Shown here: positions 1,546 through 22,413 of the stretch, piece by piece
Numbering within the stretch: the stretch's first letter is position 1
How the letters are laid out: every line of letters starts with the position of its first letter
IMG/VR virus record: IMGVR_UViG_3300034104_000828
Span: 1-22,413 of that record
DNA length: 22,413 nucleotides
Direction: 5' to 3' (one strand)
Source of the DNA: a virus
Translations under genes and position numbers: made by a program
The notes under the pieces: generated by a model
Databases searched by the model: none
Told to the model about the DNA's origin: nothing
Seen by the model: the letters and a program-made list of their open reading frames with translations, nothing else

Positions 1546-2415
1546 ATGAAAAAAATGGTCAAAAAGAAAATGGGCGGCAAAGTTAAAAAATATGAAGATG
1601 GCGGCCCAGGTCCAGTAACCAGACAAGATATCAAGCAAGCTAAAATGCAAGCTAAACTTAATAGAATCAATGCTGGTACAGAACCCTCTACATACGAAAA
1701 AGTTGCAAATATTACTGGTAATGTAGCTAAAACTGCAGCAAGTGCAGCTCAAGTTGCTGATGCAGTTAGAGATACAAGAACTGGTATGAGTGGTCCTGGT
1801 GGAATGAAAAAAGGTGGCTCTGTTAGAAAGTATCAAGATGGTGGAATGACCGGTTTTGAAAGAAGACAAGCTAAAAAGGTAGGTAGAGCAGAGACAAAAG
1901 CAACTGTTGCTAAGATTGAAGGAGAAGGTACTGTTGCTCAAAAAAGAGATAACAGAGCTAAACGTGTATCTACAATGGCAGGAACTGCTAGAGCTAAAAC
2001 TCCAAGATCAGTTTCTACATCTACATCTACATCAAATTCTACATCTACAGTTAATAATAATGAAGCTCCTAGAACGCCTAAAACTACTCCAGGATCTACA
2101 AAAACTACTGGTAAAACTGTAACTAAACCTAATATTCCTGCAGGTAAACCAAAACCAGAATATACAAGAACTAGTGTTAAAACAGTAAATAAAGATAGTG
2201 TTAAAAGTCCTGTAAGATACAAAACAGGTGGTATGGTAAACTCTAATGCAAAAGTTTCTGCATTAAAATCTGCTGGATCAAAAGGTGTTAAATCTGGAGT
2301 TAATCCTAAAGCTGCTGCATCTAAAGTTGCTAGAGGTAGAGTTGGTGGAACAAGTTCTGCTCCTAAGACTGCTGTACCTAAAGCTAAGTATGGTATGGTA
2401 ATGCGTAAGAAATAA
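1546..2415 (+). CDS. Lys/Arg-rich low-complexity protein with Gly-Gly motifs (289 aa)
   Basis: A very basic, low-complexity and probably disordered protein. A 13-residue unit occurs twice, exactly 80 residues apart: KMGGKVKKYEDGG at 8-20 and KKGGSVRKYQDGG at 88-100. A third related motif, RYKTGGM, lies at 224-230. Residues 155-168 are a Ser-Thr linker encoded by a hexamer repeat, and the rest is rich in Lys, Ala, Pro and Thr. I do not recognise a fold. The charge suggests nucleic-acid binding, and the location between head and connector genes suggests an internal head protein. It is the first of a run of small basic genes, and its Gly-Gly motif recurs in two or three of the others and in the cargo protein at 20090. 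The function is inferred only. Confidence 0.75.
   Translation: MKKMVKKKMGGKVKKYEDGGPGPVTRQDIKQAKMQAKLNRINAGTEPSTYEKVANITGNVAKTAASAAQVADAVRDTRTGMSGPGGMKKGGSVRKYQDGGMTGFERRQAKKVGRAETKATVAKIEGEGTVAQKRDNRAKRVSTMAGTARAKTPRSVSTSTSTSNSTSTVNNNEAPRTPKTTPGSTKTTGKTVTKPNIPAGKPKPEYTRTSVKTVNKDSVKSPVRYKTGGMVNSNAKVSALKSAGSKGVKSGVNPKAAASKVARGRVGGTSSAPKTAVPKAKYGMVMRKK
1567..1845 (+). repeat. Duplicated Gly-Gly coding unit
   Basis: Two 39-bp coding units (1567-1605 and 1807-1845) lie 240 bases apart. They encode the same pattern K-x-G-G-x-V-(K/R)-K-Y-(E/Q)-D-G-G. The DNA has diverged at many third positions while the protein pattern is kept, which points to selection on the peptide rather than a recent duplication. 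Confidence 0.6.
2014..2049 (+). repeat. TCTACA hexamer microsatellite
   Basis: Three perfect TCTACA units (2014-2031), one degenerate unit (TCAAAT) and two more perfect units (2038-2049) stand in frame and encode a Ser-Thr linker. Loss or gain of units would change linker length by two residues without a frameshift. Confidence 0.85.
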
Positions 2416-2420
2416 TTACT

Positions 2421-2759
2421 ATGCCAAAAGATGCATGCTATTCTAAAGTAAAAGCACAGTATGCTGTGTTTCCTTCAGCTAGGGCTTCGCAGGCTATTGC
2501 TAAGTGCCGTAAAGGTTCTGGTAATGTTAGGAAAACTAAAGCTGGTAGTGATCTTAAAAGATGGCAAGCAGAGAAGTGGCAAGATACAAAATCTGGAAAA
2601 GCTTGTGGTGCCGGTGGTAAAAATGAATACTGCCGGCCAACAAGAAAAGTATCTAAAGATACACCTAAAACAAAGTATGAATTAACTCCTTCTAAACTAG
2701 CTGCTAAGAAAGCTGAGAAGTCTAGAGTAGGCATGGGAAGAAGAGTTAAAAAAGCATAA
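2421..2759 (+). CDS. Small basic protein, DUF5872-like (112 aa)
   Basis: Two parts are visible. The first (1-32) is MPKDACYSKVKAQY followed by VFPSARASQAIAKCRK. The second has a W-x5-W segment (RWQAEKWQD, 47-55) and a small Cys/Gly patch (ACGAGG, then YCRPTRKVS). I recall this layout from a family in large DNA viruses and phages listed as DUF5872; the number is from memory. The four Cys (6, 29, 62, 71) could bind a metal, but this is not established. The C-terminus is a Lys/Arg tail. The gene starts 5 bases after the preceding stop codon and ends 2 bases before the next start. A packaged DNA-binding protein is the simplest guess. Confidence 0.78.
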   Translation: MPKDACYSKVKAQYAVFPSARASQAIAKCRKGSGNVRKTKAGSDLKRWQAEKWQDTKSGKACGAGGKNEYCRPTRKVSKDTPKTKYELTPSKLAAKKAEKSRVGMGRRVKKA

Positions 2760-2761
2760 CA

Positions 2762-3043
2762 ATGGCAAAGTCCCCAGCATGGCAAAGAAAAGAAGGTAAG
2801 AATCCATCAGGAGGTCTTAATGCTAAAGGTGTTGCTTCTTATAGAAAAGCCAATCCAGGCAGTAAACTTAAAACTGCTGTAACTACTAAACCATCAAAGC
2901 TTGCTCCAGATAGTAAAGATGCTAATAGGAGAAAATCTTTTTGTGCTAGAATGTCTGGTATGAAGAAAAAACTTACAAGTTCAAAGACAGCAAATGATCC
3001 TAACTCAAGGATCAATAAGTCTTTGAGAAAGTGGAACTGTTAA
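2762..3043 (+). CDS. Small basic protein, DUF6321-like (93 aa)
   Basis: Highly conserved-looking blocks are SPAWQRKEGKNPSGGLNAKG (4-23), NPGSKLK (31-37), RRKSFCARMSGMKK (56-69) and the C-terminal SLRKWNC. This order matches a short domain that I remember from many large phages and giant viruses under the name DUF6321 (number from memory). Its role is unknown; it is positively charged and may bind nucleic acid or sit in the virion. It has two Cys (61 and 93). The start codon lies 2 bases after the preceding TAA, so translation is probably coupled. Confidence 0.8.
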   Translation: MAKSPAWQRKEGKNPSGGLNAKGVASYRKANPGSKLKTAVTTKPSKLAPDSKDANRRKSFCARMSGMKKKLTSSKTANDPNSRINKSLRKWNC

Positions 3044-3055
3044 AAATTATATAAG

Positions 3056-3472
3056 ATGAAAATGTTGAAGACTTGTAAAACAGGTTGCGGTAAAATGAAA
3101 TCCGGAGGAACTGTTAAGAAAGTAAAGAAGATGGCTGATGGCGGTCAAATTTATGGTATTCCACAAACTGGTCCTACTGGTCCCAACTATCAAGGTATTG
3201 ATACCATGAAGAAAGGTGGTATGGTTAAGAAGATGGCTAAAGGAGGTGCAACTAGTTTTGGTATGCTTTCAGTAAAAGCCGGTGTGGATAAAAACCCTAA
3301 GCCTACTGCAGCAGACAGAATTGTTGGTGCTAAAAAGAAAGCTAAGTTTGGAGCATCTGTTCCAGTACAACGTTCTCCAGCTCCAGGTAGAGTTAGATCT
3401 TCATCTGGTGTAGGTACTGTTCCTGTAGGTACACGTAAGAAAATGGGGGGTACAATTAGAAAAAAGAAATAG
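3056..3472 (+). CDS. Basic protein with four or five Gly-Gly motifs (138 aa)
   Basis: A short Lys-rich protein built largely of Gly-Gly motifs: KMKSGGTVKKVKKMADGG (13-30), MKKGGMVKKMAKGG (51-64) and KKMGGTIRKKK at the C-terminus (128-138). Between them lie a small Gly-Pro stretch (TGPTGPNYQG) and a Pro/Arg/Ser-rich part at 100-125. Two Cys stand near the start (7 and 11). No enzyme fold is visible. The motif pairs have the same layout as the duplicated unit in the 289-residue protein, so the two proteins probably share a partner or a processing enzyme. The gene ends with TAG, and the next ATG follows after 2 bases, which confirms TAG as a true stop here. Confidence 0.76.
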   Translation: MKMLKTCKTGCGKMKSGGTVKKVKKMADGGQIYGIPQTGPTGPNYQGIDTMKKGGMVKKMAKGGATSFGMLSVKAGVDKNPKPTAADRIVGAKKKAKFGASVPVQRSPAPGRVRSSSGVGTVPVGTRKKMGGTIRKKK

Positions 3473-3474
3473 TT

Positions 3475-3777
3475 ATGGCAGTAAGTAAAAAAAGTCAGGA
3501 TTGTAATTACGGATCAGACTGTCCTCCACAACATGGTTGTGTAGATGGTAAGTGTGTTCCATGGGCAAAAAAACCAGGAATACTTGGTAATACAAGTGCA
3601 AAAATTGGTGCCGGCATTATTGGAGCAGGTCTTGCTGCAATTGGAACCAGAGTTGCAAAAAACATAAAGGAGAACAAACCTGTTAGACAAGCAAAAAGAG
3701 CAGCTAAGAAAAATTCTGATCTTATTGCAAAAAGAGGTGGTGCAGTTGCAAAACGTACAACTACTAAAAGAAAATAG
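3475..3777 (+). CDS. Small Cys-rich/basic protein with a Gly-rich hydrophobic segment (100 aa)
   Basis: The N-terminal 30 residues hold four Cys with Gly and Asp spacing (C10, C16, C22, C27; DCNYGSDCPPQHGC), like a small disulfide-knit or metal-binding module. A Gly/Ala/Ile stretch at 41-61 (KIGAGIIGAGLAAIG) could be a membrane or amphipathic segment. The last 40 residues are Lys/Arg-rich and include KRGGAVAKR, a weak version of the Gly-Gly motif. This arrangement would suit a virion protein that touches both membrane and DNA, but that is inference. The TAG stop is followed by the next start after 2 bases. I do not recognise a named family. Confidence 0.7.
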   Translation: MAVSKKSQDCNYGSDCPPQHGCVDGKCVPWAKKPGILGNTSAKIGAGIIGAGLAAIGTRVAKNIKENKPVRQAKRAAKKNSDLIAKRGGAVAKRTTTKRK

Positions 3778-3779
3778 TC

Positions 3780-4139
3780 ATGCCTGTTAAAAAGAGTACT
3801 TCACCAAGAGAGTCTAAACAAAAGTTTTATTCACCTGACGGTAATTATAAAACAACAGTTAAGAAAAGATATGGTGCACCAGAAACAGTTAAAGAAACAA
3901 GAACTGTTAAAGGTGTAATTAATAAAGTTGCAAAGCCTAGTTCTGGCACAGCTCCATTAATTAAAGAAGAACCTCTAAGATATGCAAAAAAAGGCGGATC
4001 TACTGGTGATAAAAAGTGGATACAGAAAGCAATTAATCCTGCACATAAGGGTTACTGCACTCCAATGACTAAATCTACTTGTACCCCAAAGAGAAAAGCA
4101 CTTGCTATTACTTTAAAAAAGATGGCTAAAAAAAGATAA
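3780..4139 (+). CDS. Small basic protein with conserved KWIQKAINPAHKG tail (119 aa)
   Basis: The N-terminal 65 residues are basic and low in complexity. A Gly-Gly motif (RYAKKGG, 67-73) precedes the C-terminal domain KKWIQKAINPAHKGYC (78-93), which continues with TPMTKSTCTPKRKALA. I remember this C-terminal block as a recurrent module of unknown function in large phages and giant viruses, where KWIQKA is often followed by a HKG segment. Two Cys (93 and 101) flank a Thr-rich loop. The Gly-Gly motif sits just before the folded-looking part, as it does between domains of the cargo protein. It is the last gene of the basic cluster, with 3 bases to the ring protein start. Confidence 0.76.
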   Translation: MPVKKSTSPRESKQKFYSPDGNYKTTVKKRYGAPETVKETRTVKGVINKVAKPSSGTAPLIKEEPLRYAKKGGSTGDKKWIQKAINPAHKGYCTPMTKSTCTPKRKALAITLKKMAKKR

Positions 4140-13417: not shown

Positions 13418-14496
13418 TGGACTTTAATTACACACTCCGGTACAGAACATTTAATCAATTGTTAGAAGATGTAACAGTTGACTTAAATACATTTGCTCTA
13501 GAAAATATGATAGAGCCACAGCAGTTAATTAAACTGGTGAAGAAATTAAACTATGATCTTGGTTTAAGAATCAATCAACAAAGAGAAGTAATTCTTGATG
13601 TGTGTCATGGTAAAGTAAAACTACCAGATGATTTCTACACATTCAACTTTGCATTTATCTGTGGTCACTTTACTGAACACGTGGGTTATAATGGATGGGT
13701 GGGTGGTACTAATATCCAAGAAGTACCATATGTAGAGACTCCAGCTACCGTAGATGTATGTGCACCAATTACAGTAAACTGTGCTACATGTAATGCAAAC
13801 CCATGTAACCATACTGCAGCATGTCCAGACAATACATGTCCTGCTACATGTGCTCCCAATCCTATTCCAACTGAGTATGATCCTTTAGCTCCTTATGGAG
13901 ATGTTTGTACAAGACCAAGGGTTTTTATGAACTGTAAAGGAGATAAGTATGAACTTGTTCAAGTAATTAGTAATCCAGGATCTACAAGAGTTTATACACA
14001 ACTCTTTCCATTAAGAATGAAGACTAGTCAGAATATAGAATGTGACTGTCCAAATCTTTATTGGAACACCCCAAATGAAGGTTGGATCAAAGATGGGTTC
14101 TTATTCACAACCTTTGATACTGGTAAAGTATATTTAAACTACCAAGGTCAAATGGAGGATGAGAATGGTAACCTATTAGTTCCAGATCATGATCTACTTA
14201 ATGAATACTATGAGTATGCATTAAAAGCAAGAATCATGGAAAACCTTTATTTGAATGGAGAGGATGTAGCACAAAGAATGCAGCTTATTGAACAGAGAGT
14301 AAGAGTAGCTAGAAATGCTGCATTAAGTCTTGTCAATACTCCAAACTTTAGAGAGATGGCTGATATGTGGTGGGCTAATAGAAAAGCTATGTACGGTAAA
14401 TATTATTATATGTTTGAGAGTTATTCTCCAGATAATAGATACTATAGAAATAATGGTTACAATGGTACCAATGGTTACAATAGAAGATACATGTAA
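13417..14496 (+). CDS. crAss-like tail ring/hub protein with Cys-rich insert (359 aa)
   Basis: Conserved-looking parts are FNQLLEDVTVDLNTFALEN (12-30), LPDDFYTFNFAFICG (69-83), YLNYQGQMEDENGN and the helical C-terminal part HDLLNEYYEYALKARIMENL followed by an IEQRVRVARNAAL segment. The latter I recall from crAss-like ring/hub proteins. Residues 115-145 hold seven Cys (115, 122, 125, 130, 136, 141, 145) in a Pro/Asn-rich loop that looks inserted between two structural halves and may bind metal or form disulfides. The C-terminal tail is Tyr/Asn/Gly-rich (NNGYNGTNGYN). The gene is coupled to both neighbours by TAATG overlaps. The role as a tail barrel component is inferred from family and place. 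Confidence 0.7.
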   Translation: MDFNYTLRYRTFNQLLEDVTVDLNTFALENMIEPQQLIKLVKKLNYDLGLRINQQREVILDVCHGKVKLPDDFYTFNFAFICGHFTEHVGYNGWVGGTNIQEVPYVETPATVDVCAPITVNCATCNANPCNHTAACPDNTCPATCAPNPIPTEYDPLAPYGDVCTRPRVFMNCKGDKYELVQVISNPGSTRVYTQLFPLRMKTSQNIECDCPNLYWNTPNEGWIKDGFLFTTFDTGKVYLNYQGQMEDENGNLLVPDHDLLNEYYEYALKARIMENLYLNGEDVAQRMQLIEQRVRVARNAALSLVNTPNFREMADMWWANRKAMYGKYYYMFESYSPDNRYYRNNGYNGTNGYNRRYM

Positions 14497-17400
14497 TGGC
14501 AAAACTTCAGGATACATCTCAGAGTGTTACGCACACATTTGTAAAGGGTCTTAATAAAGATTCAGATCCTTCATTTGTATCAGAAGGTATGTGGATACAT
14601 GCCCGTAATGCAACTAACAATACATCAGAAGGTAATTTAGGTACTCTATCAAATGAAGCATCTAATGTGCTATGTGCTGTAGCCGGAGTTACTATGCCTA
14701 CAACTGGTGCAAATGGAGTAACAGATGTTTATATAATAGGAGCAATTCATCTCTACTCAGATAAGTGGATCATCTATTCTGCAGGTCATGCTTTAAATGG
14801 TAAGCCTGTTATGTCAGAGATTGGTTTACTAGAAGAAGAGAGATGTATTTACAGACCTATTGTTCAAGATGAATGCTTAGGTTTTGATAAGAGATTTCTT
14901 ATATCAGGATCATCTAGAGAAAAAGAAGACTGCTCATGGCAAGTATATTGGGCTGATGGTTTAAATCCAGATAGATTTTTAAATGTAGGAGATCCACAAA
15001 CTTGGCCATCTAATGACTATCAGTGGCTACTTAATACTATTACTAACCCTACTCCAGCTGTTTATAATACATCAGTAAACCAGTATGTAAACTCTACAGG
15101 TGATCTGACACTATGGCCTGGTGTAGCATGGGTGCAAGACTGTTCCACTAATGTAAACTGTACAACCTGTGATGACACTAATGAATTAGATTGTGATCGT
15201 ATTAGACTTGCAAGACTTGTACAAACACCATGTCTTTCTATTCAAAGAGGTGAGTCTGGTGGGACACTTAGAAATGGAACATACTTTGCTGTTATTGCTT
15301 ATTTAATAAAGGGTCAGAGAGTTACAGATTATTTTTCTCCAAGTAATACCCAACCAATTTATTTTCCTGATGATCTACAAGGAGCTATTACAATTAATGT
15401 AGAAGCAGATCAAGAAAACTTTGATGAGTTTGTATTAGTAGTTGTACAGAATATTAATCAGGGTACTGTTGCAAAACAAATTGGTACATACTCTACAAAG
15501 ACTAATGTTATTGAGTTAGATCAAATAAAAGATGACTTAATAACTGTCCCACTAGAATTTCTTCCAATTACCAATCCAATCTATGAAACATCAGATCAGA
15601 TTACAGATGTAAATAGTTACTTACTTAGAGTTGGTCCAAGAACAAGATTTGACTTTAACTACCAACCACTAGCAAACATAATTAGAGCTAAATGGGTATC
15701 TGTAGAATATCCTGCAGACTATTATGTAAAGGGTGGTAATAAAGGTAGTTACTTAAGAGATGAAGTATATGCATTCTTTATTCGTTGGGTATATAATACT
15801 GGAGACAAGTCTGCATCATATCACATTCCAGGAAGACCTCCTCAAGATTATAGTTATATCCTTACAGGAACAAATACTACAGTATCAGGTAATGAGAGAA
15901 CAAATACTATTAATGATGTAAATACTTTAACAAATAGTGATCAACTATTTGAGATGTATAATACTGCTAATACCAATGGTGTTGCATCTATTCTTGGTAC
16001 AACTACAAATGATGGTGGCACTGTAATTGCCTCTGGAGAAATGGGTTACTGGGAGTCATCTGAGATATATCCAGATAGACAACCAGAGATATGGAATTCT
16101 ACTGAGCACTGTTGGACTGGTTCAGATGGACATGCTAGTTATATAGATCCACAAGGAAATACTATTTACATTAATGATCTTTGTGGTCTCAATATTAGAC
16201 ACCATAAGTTTCCAGATAATCATTTAAGTGCTAATACTTTACACTATAGACCAAGTACAGCTTCTGTACCAGGAGACTCTAACAATCTGAATATCAGATT
16301 AATGGGAGTAGTATTTGAGAACATAGCATTACCAAAAGATAATGACGGTAATGATATTCCAGGTATTGTAGGTTATGAAATCTTAAGAGGTTCAAGAGAA
16401 GGTAACAGATCAATTGTGGCAAAGGGTATGCTCAATAACATGAGAACCTATAAGATCAAAGGAGATGTTGCTAGAAATAGAACTGGACTATATCCTAACT
16501 ATCCTTTTAACTGTATTCAAACACCAATGAATACAGGTAACTCTTCAGAAGCAAACTATCGGTTTAATGATCCATATATTAAATTAGACCAGGGTTATAG
16601 TCAAACTGTACCTATTGAAATAAATACTTTTCACTCTCCAGATACAATGTTTAGAACTCCTTTCTTAGAAGGGACTGAACTAAAACTATATGGTGCACTT
16701 AGTGGTTATTCATTTCAATCATTTAAGTATCCGGATGAGCATCCTAAGTTTAAGTTGATAAGTGATGCTGCTATGGGCCTAGCACTACTAATAGGTTTTG
16801 CAGAAGCACTTGTTTCACTTACAGGTAAAAAAGTAATGAGACAACCTGGTGCTAGTTTTACTACACAACCTGTTTTAAATCTAGTAAGTACTGGACCTGG
16901 GGTTACTCTAACTAATCCTACGGATCCCTTCTATGAAGCTCCTAATCAAATTGCACAAACTCAAATTAAGAACTTAGATGTAGGTAATCCAACAGGTGTG
17001 GCAATACCAGGATCATATTTTCAAAAATTAAAAACATATTTTAATCAGGGTAGTATTATTACTAATGTATTTGGTGGAACTAATACACTTGATCAAATAT
17101 TTGAAGGTTTCAACTATGACGTTGGATTTAAAATGGGAGGAACATTTACAGCTCCTGATATTGATGTAGAATTATCTGCAGCAACATACTTAGAATCTTC
17201 TGGTAACGTATCTTTTTTTGGTGCTGTAAGTAATGTTCTTGGTGCTCTAAATAAATTTTTCTATTACTTCTCAGAAGGTGCTGATGCAACACTTGGTGTA
17301 ATTTATGCATTTCTACCTTTTGATCAGTACGCACTCCAAATGATATCACATGGGTTGTATGATAGTTTCTTACCACCTAGTTTTATTCAGAGATCAAATC

Positions 17401-20090
17401 AACCATACGTTACTAGATTAAAAATAGATGATGCTTTTTATATTAGAGGTAATATACAAGAAGTTCCATATTATCAATCTCAGTGGCCTGCTGTTGTAAA
17501 TAATAGATACTCTATTAACAATCTTAAAAGATCTGACTCAGTTGTTTTAAGAACTCTTAGTGGTCCATACTTTCAACCAGCATATCCTAACGGTGTAGAT
17601 CTAGGTCCTAAGTTTATTTTAAATAGTTCTAACAAATACTATGACCAGTCACTTGTGACAATGTCATACTTTGAGAATAATGCTTCTGGTCAAGGTAATG
17701 CCTGGGGTAATATTTCTGGACCATCTTTTGATGATAGAAGTATTTCAACACCATTCTCTCTTCCAATTGCAAGTCACTATGGTGCTATTAAAGTTAGAAA
17801 AAGAAACCAGTATGGTCAACTTGAATCTGTAAAACAAATTGCAATAACCCCATGTGAGCAAAAACTAGATGATAGTTATTATGCAAATCATATATGGCCA
17901 GAGCAGTACACGTGTTCAACAGGTATTCAATACACTATAAATAAAATTACTCTTACACCAATATTCTTTGGCGGAGATACTTTTGTAAACAGATACACTG
18001 AGAAGAACTCAATGTTCTTTTTCTATGACTGGTTATATGGTCAACCAGATGGTTTTGAATTTAACTATCTACTAAGACAGATGATACCGGAACCTAAGTT
18101 CTGGGTTAACTCAACTAAGTATGACGTATCTGATTTTTCAAATATACTTACTCAGTTCTTTAATGGTGGTACTCCTCCGGGAACTGGTTGGAAACCTACT
18201 CAGTTCTATTCAATGGACTTTAAGGGCTTTGATTATAGAGACAATACAGCTGGAAACTACCCTGGTATTTTTAGACCAAAAGATTGTTACTTCTACCTAG
18301 CTGTTTCTTCAGTGAGAGATTTCTTTGTAGAATCAGAAGTACTTGTAGATTTTAGAATTCAAGGTATTACTGAAGCAGAAAAATATTATGACCCATATGG
18401 ATATACGGATCTCATCAGTATGTTTAATATGGACCCACAAATTATTACTAGAGGTAATGAATATAGGTATGATTATTCATTGAGTATTACTAAAGCATTT
18501 AGTCAGTACTTCTCAGCTGGTAACTTACAGAGCAGATACTATAATCCAAATATTGCCAAACTGTGTTATACTTATTTTCCTGATAGAATTATCTATTCTC
18601 TTCCACAACAACAGGAGGCAATTAAAGATAGTTGGTTTGTATTCTTAGTAAATAATTACAAAGAATTCCAGTCACAGATTTCAGGTGTTAAGGCTATTAA
18701 TAAAAATGGTATTGTAATTACATTTAAGAACAATAGTCCATTGATGTATCAAGGTGTAGATACTCTACAAACAGATCTTGGTACTAAGATTACTATTGGA
18801 GATGGTGGTCTATTTAGTCAACCGGGACAGTCTGTGATTAATGCAGATCAGTCTTATGAATATGGTTCATCACAGAATAGACTATCTGTAATTTCTACTC
18901 CAGCTGGTATTTATTACATCTCACAGAACCAAGCTAAGATATTCTCACTAGGAAGCAATCTAAAAGAGATCTCTCAGATTGGTCTCAAATGGTGGTTTAA
19001 TAATTTCTTACCTTATAAGTTAACTGATGACTTCCCAGATTACCCATATCAGGATAACCCTGTATCTGGTATTGGTTGTCAGTCTATATATGATAATGAA
19101 AACAGTATCTTGTATTTTTCTAAAAGAGATTACCAACTATTAGAAAAATGGAAGTCTCCAAACTTTACAGGTACAATTATATATGTGCCTCTAATTACAT
19201 CAGGACCTAAGAAAGGTCAGGGAGACTATTTCCAAATACAGAATGCTAATGGTACTATACAACCTGGTATATATCAACTTGGTAATCCGTTACTATTTGA
19301 AGATGCATCCTGGACAATAAGTTATGACCCTAAGAATGAATTCTGGATTTCTTTCCATGACTGGCATCCTGATCTAAACATGGGTACCAAAGATGTATTC
19401 TTAACTACTAAGAAGAACGGTATCTGGAAACATAATGAAGGTTGTACAAGTTTCTGTAACTTCTATGGTGATCAGTATCCGTTTGAAATAGAGATGCCAA
19501 TTATTACTGGCCAAACAGTTACCACTGTTAAATCTATTGAATACATATTAGAGTGTTATAGAAGAAGACCACAAAACTGTATTGATCAGTTCCATGTCTT
19601 AGATTATAACTTTGATAAAGCTGTAGTATACAATTCTGAACAAGTATCAGGATACTTAAATCTTAATATCTTTCCTAAGAACAATGTAACTCTAAGTGAG
19701 ACTTATCCTAAGGTAAATCAATCTAACTTATCTTCTTTTGATATCTTATTTAGTAAAGAAGAGAACAAGTATAGATTTAACCAGTTCTGGGATATTACTA
19801 GAGATAGATCAGAGTTTCCAATTGGATCAGACTATCCACCAACAGGACCAGTCATTCCAGGTACAACAGTACTACAAGGTAATTATGCAGATAGAAACAT
19901 CTGGTTTACTGAATCAAATGGTTATAAGAGAACTCTTAATCCAACAAACTTAGACTACAACAAACCTGAACTACAAAGAAAGAAGTTTAGACATTACTTA
20001 AATTACTTAACTTTAATTAGAGAAGACAGTTCAGATACTAACATGATCTTAAAAATTGTAAATAGTAAAAATCAAATATCTCTCAGATAA
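14496..20090 (+). CDS. crAss-like muzzle (tail stabilisation) protein, 1864 aa
   Basis: The N-terminus has the typical FVKGLNKDSDPSFVSEGMW (15-33) and IHARNATNN blocks. The C-terminal 230 residues include HVLDYNFDKAVVYNSEQVSG, SKEENKYRFNQFWDITRDR and NLDYNKPELQRKKFRHYLNY, which I recognise from the muzzle protein that closes the tail end in crAss-like phages. Between them is a long beta-rich body. A Cys cluster (DCSTNVNCTTCDD) lies near 210, and a hydrophobic helix, GLALLIGFAEALVSL, near 760-775 could be buried in the assembly or touch membrane during entry. It is the largest gene here. The start overlaps the previous stop (TAATG), and its stop overlaps the cargo gene start in the same way. 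Confidence 0.85.
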   Translation: MAKLQDTSQSVTHTFVKGLNKDSDPSFVSEGMWIHARNATNNTSEGNLGTLSNEASNVLCAVAGVTMPTTGANGVTDVYIIGAIHLYSDKWIIYSAGHALNGKPVMSEIGLLEEERCIYRPIVQDECLGFDKRFLISGSSREKEDCSWQVYWADGLNPDRFLNVGDPQTWPSNDYQWLLNTITNPTPAVYNTSVNQYVNSTGDLTLWPGVAWVQDCSTNVNCTTCDDTNELDCDRIRLARLVQTPCLSIQRGESGGTLRNGTYFAVIAYLIKGQRVTDYFSPSNTQPIYFPDDLQGAITINVEADQENFDEFVLVVVQNINQGTVAKQIGTYSTKTNVIELDQIKDDLITVPLEFLPITNPIYETSDQITDVNSYLLRVGPRTRFDFNYQPLANIIRAKWVSVEYPADYYVKGGNKGSYLRDEVYAFFIRWVYNTGDKSASYHIPGRPPQDYSYILTGTNTTVSGNERTNTINDVNTLTNSDQLFEMYNTANTNGVASILGTTTNDGGTVIASGEMGYWESSEIYPDRQPEIWNSTEHCWTGSDGHASYIDPQGNTIYINDLCGLNIRHHKFPDNHLSANTLHYRPSTASVPGDSNNLNIRLMGVVFENIALPKDNDGNDIPGIVGYEILRGSREGNRSIVAKGMLNNMRTYKIKGDVARNRTGLYPNYPFNCIQTPMNTGNSSEANYRFNDPYIKLDQGYSQTVPIEINTFHSPDTMFRTPFLEGTELKLYGALSGYSFQSFKYPDEHPKFKLISDAAMGLALLIGFAEALVSLTGKKVMRQPGASFTTQPVLNLVSTGPGVTLTNPTDPFYEAPNQIAQTQIKNLDVGNPTGVAIPGSYFQKLKTYFNQGSIITNVFGGTNTLDQIFEGFNYDVGFKMGGTFTAPDIDVELSAATYLESSGNVSFFGAVSNVLGALNKFFYYFSEGADATLGVIYAFLPFDQYALQMISHGLYDSFLPPSFIQRSNQPYVTRLKIDDAFYIRGNIQEVPYYQSQWPAVVNNRYSINNLKRSDSVVLRTLSGPYFQPAYPNGVDLGPKFILNSSNKYYDQSLVTMSYFENNASGQGNAWGNISGPSFDDRSISTPFSLPIASHYGAIKVRKRNQYGQLESVKQIAITPCEQKLDDSYYANHIWPEQYTCSTGIQYTINKITLTPIFFGGDTFVNRYTEKNSMFFFYDWLYGQPDGFEFNYLLRQMIPEPKFWVNSTKYDVSDFSNILTQFFNGGTPPGTGWKPTQFYSMDFKGFDYRDNTAGNYPGIFRPKDCYFYLAVSSVRDFFVESEVLVDFRIQGITEAEKYYDPYGYTDLISMFNMDPQIITRGNEYRYDYSLSITKAFSQYFSAGNLQSRYYNPNIAKLCYTYFPDRIIYSLPQQQEAIKDSWFVFLVNNYKEFQSQISGVKAINKNGIVITFKNNSPLMYQGVDTLQTDLGTKITIGDGGLFSQPGQSVINADQSYEYGSSQNRLSVISTPAGIYYISQNQAKIFSLGSNLKEISQIGLKWWFNNFLPYKLTDDFPDYPYQDNPVSGIGCQSIYDNENSILYFSKRDYQLLEKWKSPNFTGTIIYVPLITSGPKKGQGDYFQIQNANGTIQPGIYQLGNPLLFEDASWTISYDPKNEFWISFHDWHPDLNMGTKDVFLTTKKNGIWKHNEGCTSFCNFYGDQYPFEIEMPIITGQTVTTVKSIEYILECYRRRPQNCIDQFHVLDYNFDKAVVYNSEQVSGYLNLNIFPKNNVTLSETYPKVNQSNLSSFDILFSKEENKYRFNQFWDITRDRSEFPIGSDYPPTGPVIPGTTVLQGNYADRNIWFTESNGYKRTLNPTNLDYNKPELQRKKFRHYLNYLTLIREDSSDTNMILKIVNSKNQISLR

Positions 20091-22413
20091 TGGGTAACAA
20101 AAAAGTATTAAGCAAAGCTACTAGAGAGTTAAATAAGACTAAGAGATTTGCTGCACCTAAAAATATTATTGAAGATCCAAGAGGTCAATGGGCATACCCA
20201 GGTGAGATAACTAGAATTCCATCTGATAAAATTACAATGCAGGGTGTACCATATCCTGTTATGGCATACCCTAATATGGGAGAACCACAAATGATGTATC
20301 CAGGACAAGATTACGTATTTCCTGGAGCAGACTATGTAGATGAGTATCCACAAATGAAAAAAGGTGGTACACCTAAGAGTCTAGTTAAGATGCCAAAGCC
20401 AAGTAAGAAAGGTCTAGCATCTAAAAAATTTTCAAGGAGTCTAGAAGCTACCAACAAATTATTTACTGAAAACTATCTCTTTGCAAAACCAAAGTCTAGA
20501 AAAAGAAAAGTATTTGACCCCAATGCTGCATATTATCAAGAGGGTGGTATAAGCACACAGGAAGCTATTGATGATGCTAATAATGCTATGATGAAAGCAA
20601 GATTAGCTTATGCTTACATGCATGGTAATCCTGCAGCACAAAGAATGGTAGTAGCTCCTGATCAACCATATGTATTTGATGACGGGGATACTGGAACTCA
20701 TTTTATGGCATCTATGGATAACTATGCCGTACCATTAATACAAGATGTTAATGGTCAACTTATGCTTGGTGATTTTGGACCTGAGTCTGCAGAAGCCATG
20801 CGGTTTGATAATCCAGATGATGCACAGTACTTTGCAGAACATTATAAAGAAGTAACACCAGATCCATCTTATAGAAAAGAATATCAAATAGGTGGAGCAG
20901 CAGCATCTCCTTTTGATCTTGATCCAAAAACAATGAAGAGATATCTTGCTGATCTTAAAAACCAAGAAAACAATATTAAAAAGGGTTACAGAAGTGGTAA
21001 ATGGTATCCTCATCCTAGTCCTGAAGGAGGTTTAGATACCATTGCTTATGGACATAAACTTACTTCAAGAAATAGTCCATACTATCAAGGTATATCAGAT
21101 GAACAAGCAGAAGCACTATTATTAAAAGATGTACTACAAAACCAAGCACTAGCTAAAAAACAAGTAGATGCTAAATTTGGAGAAGGTACATTTGACTCAC
21201 TACCACAAGATAGACAAATGCTCTTGGTAGACTACCAATATAATCTTGGTACTTTAGCAGAATTCCCAAAGTTTGTTAAAGCTGTTGTTGAAGGAGATAC
21301 TAAGACTATGATAGCTGAACATACAAGATATGGCGGCAAAGATCCACTTACTAGAAGAAATCAGTGGACACTAAATGTTATTGATAATCTAACACAACCT
21401 ATACCTGAGAAACCAAGTAATGGTGTAACAATTCCATTAGCTAATGTTCCTGATGCAACTAATGTAGTATTACCACAAATAGAAGGTGGACCTGAAGGAG
21501 CAATAGAACTAGAACTTTCTCCAGAAGAAATTGAACAATATCAAATGGGTGGGTATATAGTAGAAGATGTTGATGCTACAAATGAAGTTGCTAGACCGTG
21601 TCCTCCTGGATATATATTTGATCCAAAAGCAGGTAGATGTGTACCTGAACATGCTTACAGACTAAATAGAGCAGCTGAAAAAGATGACATTAATGTAGAT
21701 GATGCGCTTAGAGAAAATAGAAGATACTATGAGGGATATCAGTTTATGAAAGATTGGCAAAATTCTCCTATGTATGATAAGATGTTAAAAGCAGGTGCAA
21801 GAAGTCCTGAGTCTTATGAGTACATGAAGAAGATGCGTCAACAACAACTTGATTCAACTCCACCATTGCAAATATTACCACAACCAGAAGATGAGCCAAA
21901 TACAGGTGGTTACTCAATGAATGCTACTGGTCAGATTGTAATTCTTCCTGAAGGATTCCGTACACGCGGTACTCACTCTCATGAGTTATCCCATTCTTCT
22001 GATAGACCAGTTAGGGGTAAGAGAAGTAGATTAATTCCACAGAGAGATGTTGATTATGTAAATAAAAACAAGGCAAAGACTATTGCAGATAGTAGGGCAT
22101 ACCATAACTATAAAGATGAGTATGATCCTATGTTTAAAGAATACCCTGAATATAAAGAACAAGTAGATGACAATTTTAAAGAATTCTCATCAGACTATGT
22201 AGGTGAACCAACTGAAGTAAGAGCAAGACTTAATGCTATTAGACAGTTATCAAAAGAAGCTGGCCTATATGATCCATTTACACAAGGTGTTTCACCAGAT
22301 TTGTACTATAAAAAACTAAAGAACTATCAGTTTGAAAAAGGTGACAAATCAGGTTTTGATCCAATGAGACAACTCCAAGATACATTTAGTGATGAAGAGA
22401 TTATCTGGTTGCT
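20090..22413 (+). CDS. Cargo/ejection protein with lysozyme-like and HELSH peptidase-like domains (N-terminal 774 aa, open at window edge)
   Basis: The frame starts at the TAATG overlap with the muzzle gene and stays open to the last base. Residues 1-270 are basic and low in complexity, with motifs QMKKGG (88-93), YYQEGG (148-153) and EYQIGG (264-269). Residues about 280-430 look like a GH24-type lysozyme: E293, then WYPHPSPEGG, DTIAYGH (316-322), SDEQAEALLLKDV and VDYQYNLGTL; the usual Asp before TIxYGH is replaced by H308. QYQMGG (483-488) follows. Residues about 605-740 carry GTHSHELSH with zinc motif H631-E632-x2-H635 and a possible third ligand, E709, in EPTEVRARLNAIR. In crAss-like phages, cargo genes follow the muzzle gene. 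The enzymes would open the cell wall during DNA entry. Confidence 0.78.
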   Translation, partial: MGNKKVLSKATRELNKTKRFAAPKNIIEDPRGQWAYPGEITRIPSDKITMQGVPYPVMAYPNMGEPQMMYPGQDYVFPGADYVDEYPQMKKGGTPKSLVKMPKPSKKGLASKKFSRSLEATNKLFTENYLFAKPKSRKRKVFDPNAAYYQEGGISTQEAIDDANNAMMKARLAYAYMHGNPAAQRMVVAPDQPYVFDDGDTGTHFMASMDNYAVPLIQDVNGQLMLGDFGPESAEAMRFDNPDDAQYFAEHYKEVTPDPSYRKEYQIGGAAASPFDLDPKTMKRYLADLKNQENNIKKGYRSGKWYPHPSPEGGLDTIAYGHKLTSRNSPYYQGISDEQAEALLLKDVLQNQALAKKQVDAKFGEGTFDSLPQDRQMLLVDYQYNLGTLAEFPKFVKAVVEGDTKTMIAEHTRYGGKDPLTRRNQWTLNVIDNLTQPIPEKPSNGVTIPLANVPDATNVVLPQIEGGPEGAIELELSPEEIEQYQMGGYIVEDVDATNEVARPCPPGYIFDPKAGRCVPEHAYRLNRAAEKDDINVDDALRENRRYYEGYQFMKDWQNSPMYDKMLKAGARSPESYEYMKKMRQQQLDSTPPLQILPQPEDEPNTGGYSMNATGQIVILPEGFRTRGTHSHELSHSSDRPVRGKRSRLIPQRDVDYVNKNKAKTIADSRAYHNYKDEYDPMFKEYPEYKEQVDDNFKEFSSDYVGEPTEVRARLNAIRQLSKEAGLYDPFTQGVSPDLYYKKLKNYQFEKGDKSGFDPMRQLQDTFSDEEIIWL

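Follow-up and report, generated by a model that had tools for sequence, protein, structure and literature searches.

What is the role of the Gly-Gly (GG) pairs that lie between the domains of a long crassvirus cargo protein, and is the chain cut at them or does it bend there? The question is raised by an open reading frame (ORF) at the end of a 22.4-kb virus record, called the window throughout. It bears on the passage of large folded cargo through a narrow tail, a problem that can be tested here at specific positions of the chain, in part in the cultured phage phicrAss001. Crassviruses are the commonest gut viruses. Their cargo proteins have been described as partly unfolded and ejected (PMC10172136, PMC10136315), and shuffled multi-domain proteins delivered by phages, the polyvalent proteins, are described in the passages found of PMC5512222. 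A preliminary description of the window, made from the sequence alone, placed four GG motifs and a weaker TGGY between the domains of this ORF, and proposed either cleavage of a polyprotein or flexible joints that let the chain thread through the tail.

The cargo gene and its surroundings

Pfam matches of its ORFs identify the window as DNA of a crAss-like phage. They include two ring proteins (CrAss_Ring_2, 3.9e-26; CrAss_Ring_1, 1.1e-8) and the muzzle protein (crAss_MUZ, E = 8.6e-20), and the first ORF (25-432) has the same C-terminal residues as the Crass_capsid-matching ORF of a relative (G003). The ring, muzzle and capsid proteins expected of Crassvirales are present and in their usual order. 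The muzzle gene (14496..20090, plus strand, as are the cargo ORF and its parts) stands immediately 5' of the cargo ORF (20090..22411), which encodes 774 residues up to the contig end and is truncated there. A relative identical over these 774 residues (L003) is 2102 residues long and has an amidase at its end. We retrieved 80 loci via the muzzle protein and compared the first gene after it. Where complete, this gene encodes 324-2507 residues, and in several relatives the cargo region consists of separate genes.

The product of the cargo ORF is probably packaged in the virion and ejected, because the gene follows that of the muzzle and its leader is homologous to that of a relative of a virion protein detected by mass spectrometry. 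This N-terminal leader domain (residues 20-93, 20147..20368), which has a GG at its end, matches the leaders of gp41 of Cellulophaga phage phi17:2 (hhalign E = 3.6e-7), where it ends FQAGG, and of Leptolyngbya phage Lbo-JY46 (E = 6.5e-12). By its annotation the phi17:2 protein is related to phi4:1 gp40, a protein recorded as detected in virions by MS/MS.

Phage Lbo-JY46, which has a cyanobacterial host, also carries a crassvirus-like muzzle (L127, 17334-25809; 24% identity over 88% of the muzzle of the window), and the protein next to the leader-bearing one has a tag-like C-terminus. Together the muzzle, the leader and the tag-like end suggest, by sequence likeness, that crAss-like phages occur outside Bacteroidota. 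A search of genome contigs for the host returned a single distant match, in a Pseudomonadales MAG, and was uninformative. A crassvirus-like muzzle of 43% identity is encoded on WLWP01000004.1 (L110), which is binned in a Pseudomonadales MAG and is probably a free phage contig that was misbinned. The two next cargo genes gave no match in a tblastn search of INPHARED.

Domains of the cargo protein

A structure model of all 774 residues (pLDDT 41) was too poor for use, and the lysozyme module was modeled separately. The lysozyme-like domain of the preliminary description (residues 276-434, 20915..21391) is supported. It matches the T4-type lysozyme family in Pfam (PF00959, E = 1.3e-5), the AlphaFold model made with 25 relatives has a pLDDT of about 88 over residues 276-434, and the best fold matches that Foldseek found in the PDB consist almost entirely of endolysins and muramidases, T4 lysozyme among them. 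In the model, the GG at 268 falls in an unstructured lead-in, 7 residues ahead of the confidently folded part, and the GG at 487 comes after a short helix and a linker of 40 residues modeled with low confidence. The peptidase-like domain fared less well: there is a HELSH sequence, a HEXXH zincin-like motif, at residues 631-635 (21980..21994), which may mark a peptidase, but a Pfam search of this part gave no match. Domain content varies among the relatives, and one of 1620 residues (L009, 10001-14860) has no lysozyme; a protein-kinase-like stretch in it was seen by eye only and has no Pfam match.

GG motifs of the cargo ORF

The ORF has 8 GG in 774 residues as compared with 3.6 in shuffled sequences (p = 0.024). 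The pattern [YFAM][QKR]xGG is present in 4 copies where 0.14 would be expected, and 0/5000 shuffles reached this number. The GG motifs are real and non-random, and the four motifs and TGGY each lie at the residues previously assigned to them. Joint 1 (QMKKGG, residues 88-93, 20351..20368) closes the leader; of the 47 relatives that share this leader end, 45 keep its GG, although the two preceding residues vary, and G92 and G93 are invariant in the alignment of relatives (A9). Behind joint 2 (YYQEGG, residues 148-153, 20531..20548) the following module is swapped in two relatives (L005 and L008), and immediately after joint 3 (EYQIGG, residues 264-269, 20879..20896) docks the lysozyme module. 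Joint 4 (QYQMGG, residues 483-488, 21536..21553) lies within a copy of the tag described below. Here G488 and Y489 are nearly invariant in the same alignment and G487 is not, the first Gly being kept only in internal tags.

The four motifs had been treated as one kind, and this does not hold. The first three are linkers with an aromatic residue or Met at -3, Gln or Lys at -2 and little preference after the GG, whereas the fourth belongs to a tag copy. Nor is TGGY (residues 605-608, 21902..21913) a weaker motif of the same series. It is not conserved, reads NLAGY in a relative (L013) and was ruled out as a joint. Three further GG had not been mentioned. The lysozyme domain contains two of them (313 and 415), which do not form joints; the third, at 466, is just upstream of the tag.

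Similar sequences were seen in other genes. At L105 (6072-8252), and in similar genes at other loci, the second and third cargo genes open with short basic leaders that end in KAQxGG or LPQARTG, and KAQxG with one Gly is found at some internal joints, so a single-Gly variant of the joint may exist. Between the capsid and ring genes of the window (1546-4139) small Lys-rich ORFs are clustered that are packed with KKGG and YxDGG motifs, a GG signature that they have in common with the cargo proteins. Two of these ORFs match DUF5872 and DUF6321, which are fused in PHROG 727, one family of 450 residues.

GG joints and module borders

Module borders were located by comparing 63 non-identical post-muzzle proteins. 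The ends of segments of high identity were clustered and taken as breakpoints, and a breakpoint was counted as near when it fell within 8 residues of a GG. This was the case for 67% of 248 clustered breakpoints and for 15% of random positions. After removal of redundancy it was 53% of 113 against 15% by chance, and none of 500 random draws reached 53%, although these counts are drawn from related sequences and exact p-values should not be over-read. Among control pairs, PG, KK, EE and NP showed little or no enrichment and DG and PP a modest one. Of the non-redundant right-hand ends near GG, 13/42 coincide with the second Gly itself and 13/42 more lie within the next 2 residues. The lysozyme module starts no more than 4 residues from a GG in 23/25 relatives, with differing modules upstream. 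The coincidence of GG joints with module borders is strongly supported by these data. The earlier proposal that GG marks domain borders thus holds in relatives and in cultured crassviruses, and alignment of orthologues, in which motif positions are tied to domain edges, does not refute it.

At the DNA level the Gly codons of the joints are mixed (GGT, GGA, GGG and GGC), about as at other Gly residues. Since codons and flanks vary while GG is kept, selection acts on the protein. Purely DNA-level conservation of GG is unsupported.

The C-terminal tag and its internal copies

Residues 471-494 (AIELELSPEEIEQYQMGGYIVEDV, 21500..21571) are an internal copy of a tag of about 25 residues, ELTxEEIxxYxxxGYxVEEL, which forms the C-terminus of 45 post-muzzle proteins and is also present within them. 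The two settings differ in the residue that precedes the invariant Gly of the tag. It is Gly in 45/49 internal copies but in only 12/45 C-terminal ones, where it is otherwise Gln, Ala, Leu, Asp or Lys (Fisher 3.6e-11; with redundancy removed at 60%, 9/9 vs 5/20, p = 2e-4). From this contrast it follows that the second Gly is part of the tag and that a double Gly is needed mainly where the chain continues. A joint and a cut site alike predict such a pattern, which argues against GG as an inert part of the tag. That GG belongs to the fold of the tag was ruled out, the first Gly being free in C-terminal tags. The internal copies suggest former protein ends that have since been fused.

Cultured crassviruses

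The cargo protein gp45 of phicrAss001 contains 21 GG. PhiCrAssBcn1 is a Bacteroides crassvirus that shares its host species with phicrAss001, and its gp45 is that of phicrAss001 minus 110 residues, with the remainder about 98% identical on both sides. The missing block runs from GG 263-264 to GG 373-374 and the switch lies within a shared GGTGG, so that a natural module deletion is already at hand in a cultured system. Over all gut-phage gp45 proteins the enrichment of breakpoints near GG is weak (0.44 vs 0.27), because low-identity alignments also end for other reasons.

An extended gp45 that reaches from the tail into the capsid was proposed, which would be threaded N-terminus first past constrictions under 50 A in phicrAss001; its residues 214-245 bind the tail rings and residues 425-552 form one ordered domain on the portal (PMC10172136). 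GG 209-210 directly precedes the tail-ring-binding residues. Residues 425-428 read A-F-G-G, so that the ordered region, by the published numbering and not by coordinates, opens two residues before GG 427-428, where modules meet in other crassviruses. Because the ordered region starts upstream of this GG, the joint appears to be uncut. The terms 'proteoly', 'cleaved' and 'protease' are absent from the text of the phicrAss001 atlas. We considered whether the window ORF is the orthologue of gp45, including its portal-bound domain 425-552, and rejected this after profile comparison, which detected no similarity between the two families (hhalign E = 0.42). In the relatives of the window the gp45-like gene is probably the next but one, from a weak match (E = 0.016).

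Search for a protease

Among the Pfam matches listed for the 90 proteins of one relative (G003), which for one half covered the first 25 of 64 families, we recognised neither a prohead or GG-specific protease nor a cysteine protease, and the peptidase-like matches among those listed belonged to two proteins, one of Peptidase_M15_3 and one of VWA/putative metallopeptidase type. In another relative (G001) the genes for TerL, portal, a 420-residue protein without family match and capsid are consecutive, with no recognised prohead protease. A search of 12 records for Peptidase_C48 gave no match and carries no information, as its controls were silent too. The gene of the VWA/putative metallopeptidase protein (DUF2201) in G003 adjoins a gene for a MoxR-type AAA ATPase (L107, 2983-5477), and the two products are possibly a chaperone or protease pair; phicrAss001 gp52 is likewise annotated as a VWA protein.

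Interpretation of the GG joints

With moderate confidence we favor the reading that GG marks the joints of an uncut cargo protein, built like beads on a string for threading. The conserved N-terminal leader closes with a GG joint, and after it come small modules and enzyme domains, namely the lysozyme, the zincin-like part and, in the longer relative, an amidase. Modules are gained, lost and swapped at the joints, and the tag of about 25 residues closes the protein and persists internally at apparent former ends. In the mature virion the chain may be intact, with the GG joints as flexible, unfoldable points at which folded modules are strung out and threaded singly through portal and tail. The flexible joints of the preliminary description thus become the favored reading and fit better than cleavage, given where the ordered region of gp45 begins. 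Several points tell against it: an ordinary flexible linker seldom requires a strict GG; the strict retention of GG, with its aromatic and Gln-rich preference upstream, looks like a recognition site; phicrAss001 shows only one module-border GG as ordered, from published residue numbers; the enrichment near GG is weak over all gut-phage breakpoints; and the full-length model is poor.

The main rival is processing, in which a phage or host protease would cut behind GG, either inside the capsid or following entry, and would release the leader, the lysozyme and other modules as separate proteins, like adenain in adenovirus. A cut site would account for the almost exclusive retention of GG where more chain follows, for shared stretches whose last residue is the second Gly, and for a preference that lies N-terminal of GG (Tyr, Phe or Met at -3, Gln or Lys at -2) and is weak after it, as expected of a P-side site; zincin-like parts, moreover, are thought to process polyvalent proteins in the passages found of PMC5512222. 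We nevertheless consider processing unlikely, although cutting after entry may occur, and the cleaved polyprotein of the preliminary description loses ground. No GG-specific or prohead protease was recognised among the matches listed for G003 or between TerL and capsid in G001, joints are present also in relatives without a recognised peptidase, the ordered region of gp45 begins upstream of its joint, and the atlas text is silent on proteolysis. More specifically, a crassvirus GG-specific system that cuts cargo polyproteins into separately acting injected enzymes, with a gene content unlike that of phage prohead proteases and convergent with adenovirus and asfarvirus maturation, seems to us unlikely, slightly more so than processing at large. 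Could GG instead be a scar of recombination at short shared DNA, which places it at borders with no function in the protein? Module swaps exactly at joints and the PhiCrAssBcn1 switch inside GGTGG are what such a scar would leave, but Gly codons and flanks vary while GG stays, and DNA homology alone does not predict the difference between C-terminal and internal tags; we regard this as very unlikely. About as little credit is due to a docking signal, by which the tag and the aromatic-x-x-GG linkers would bind each module to portal, tail wall or chaperone during packaging. It is in keeping with a tag that ends 45 different proteins and is repeated inside them, with a tag-like C-terminus even in Lbo-JY46, and with the binding of gp45 to tail rings just after GG 209-210 and to the portal by residues 425-552. 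However, the first Gly is not conserved in C-terminal tags, so GG is dispensable for the tag, and no binding partner is known; a docking role is thus improbable.

Comparison with known systems

Substrates of the adenovirus proteinase (adenain) and of asfarvirus pS273R carry GG with an upstream preference at the borders of precursor parts. The cargo family differs in having an aromatic residue at -3 and Gln or Lys at -2 and in that no such protease was recognised, and at least one equivalent joint, in phicrAss001, appears to be uncut.

Phages and conjugative elements encode polyvalent proteins (Iyer, Burroughs, Aravind 2017, PMC5512222), which are, in the passages found, like the cargo family in being long, multi-domain proteins with shuffled domains and zincin-like peptidases, delivered with DNA. 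At least two different enzymatic or effector domains, as in polyvalent proteins, are found by Pfam in L003 (lysozyme and Amidase_2). A domain of polyvalent type, ART-PolyVal (PF18760, E = 1.2e-10), was seen in a single relative of 2507 residues (L087, 11122-18645), and the HELSH part of the window matches no Pfam family. Unlike polyvalent proteins, the cargo family has wall-lytic enzymes among its domains, and neither a regular GG joint nor a recurring C-terminal tag is mentioned in the passages found of PMC5512222.

The closest comparison is with cargo protein C1 of phicrAss001 (gp45; PDB 7QOG and others), which like the window ORF is encoded just after the muzzle gene and is rich in GG, and from which a module has been lost from GG to GG. 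It is virion cargo, whereas the presence of the window product in virions is predicted from sequence. The tag is absent from gp45, for which a transmembrane segment is predicted. In the part of the literature searched we found no description of GG joints, of the tag or of GG processing in crassviruses. GG may be read as punctuation of the proteins that crassviruses inject, showing the limits of each module, the pieces open to exchange and the sites at which cutting or bending should be sought. Ejected multi-domain proteins are known, and the grammar of their joints appears to be new.
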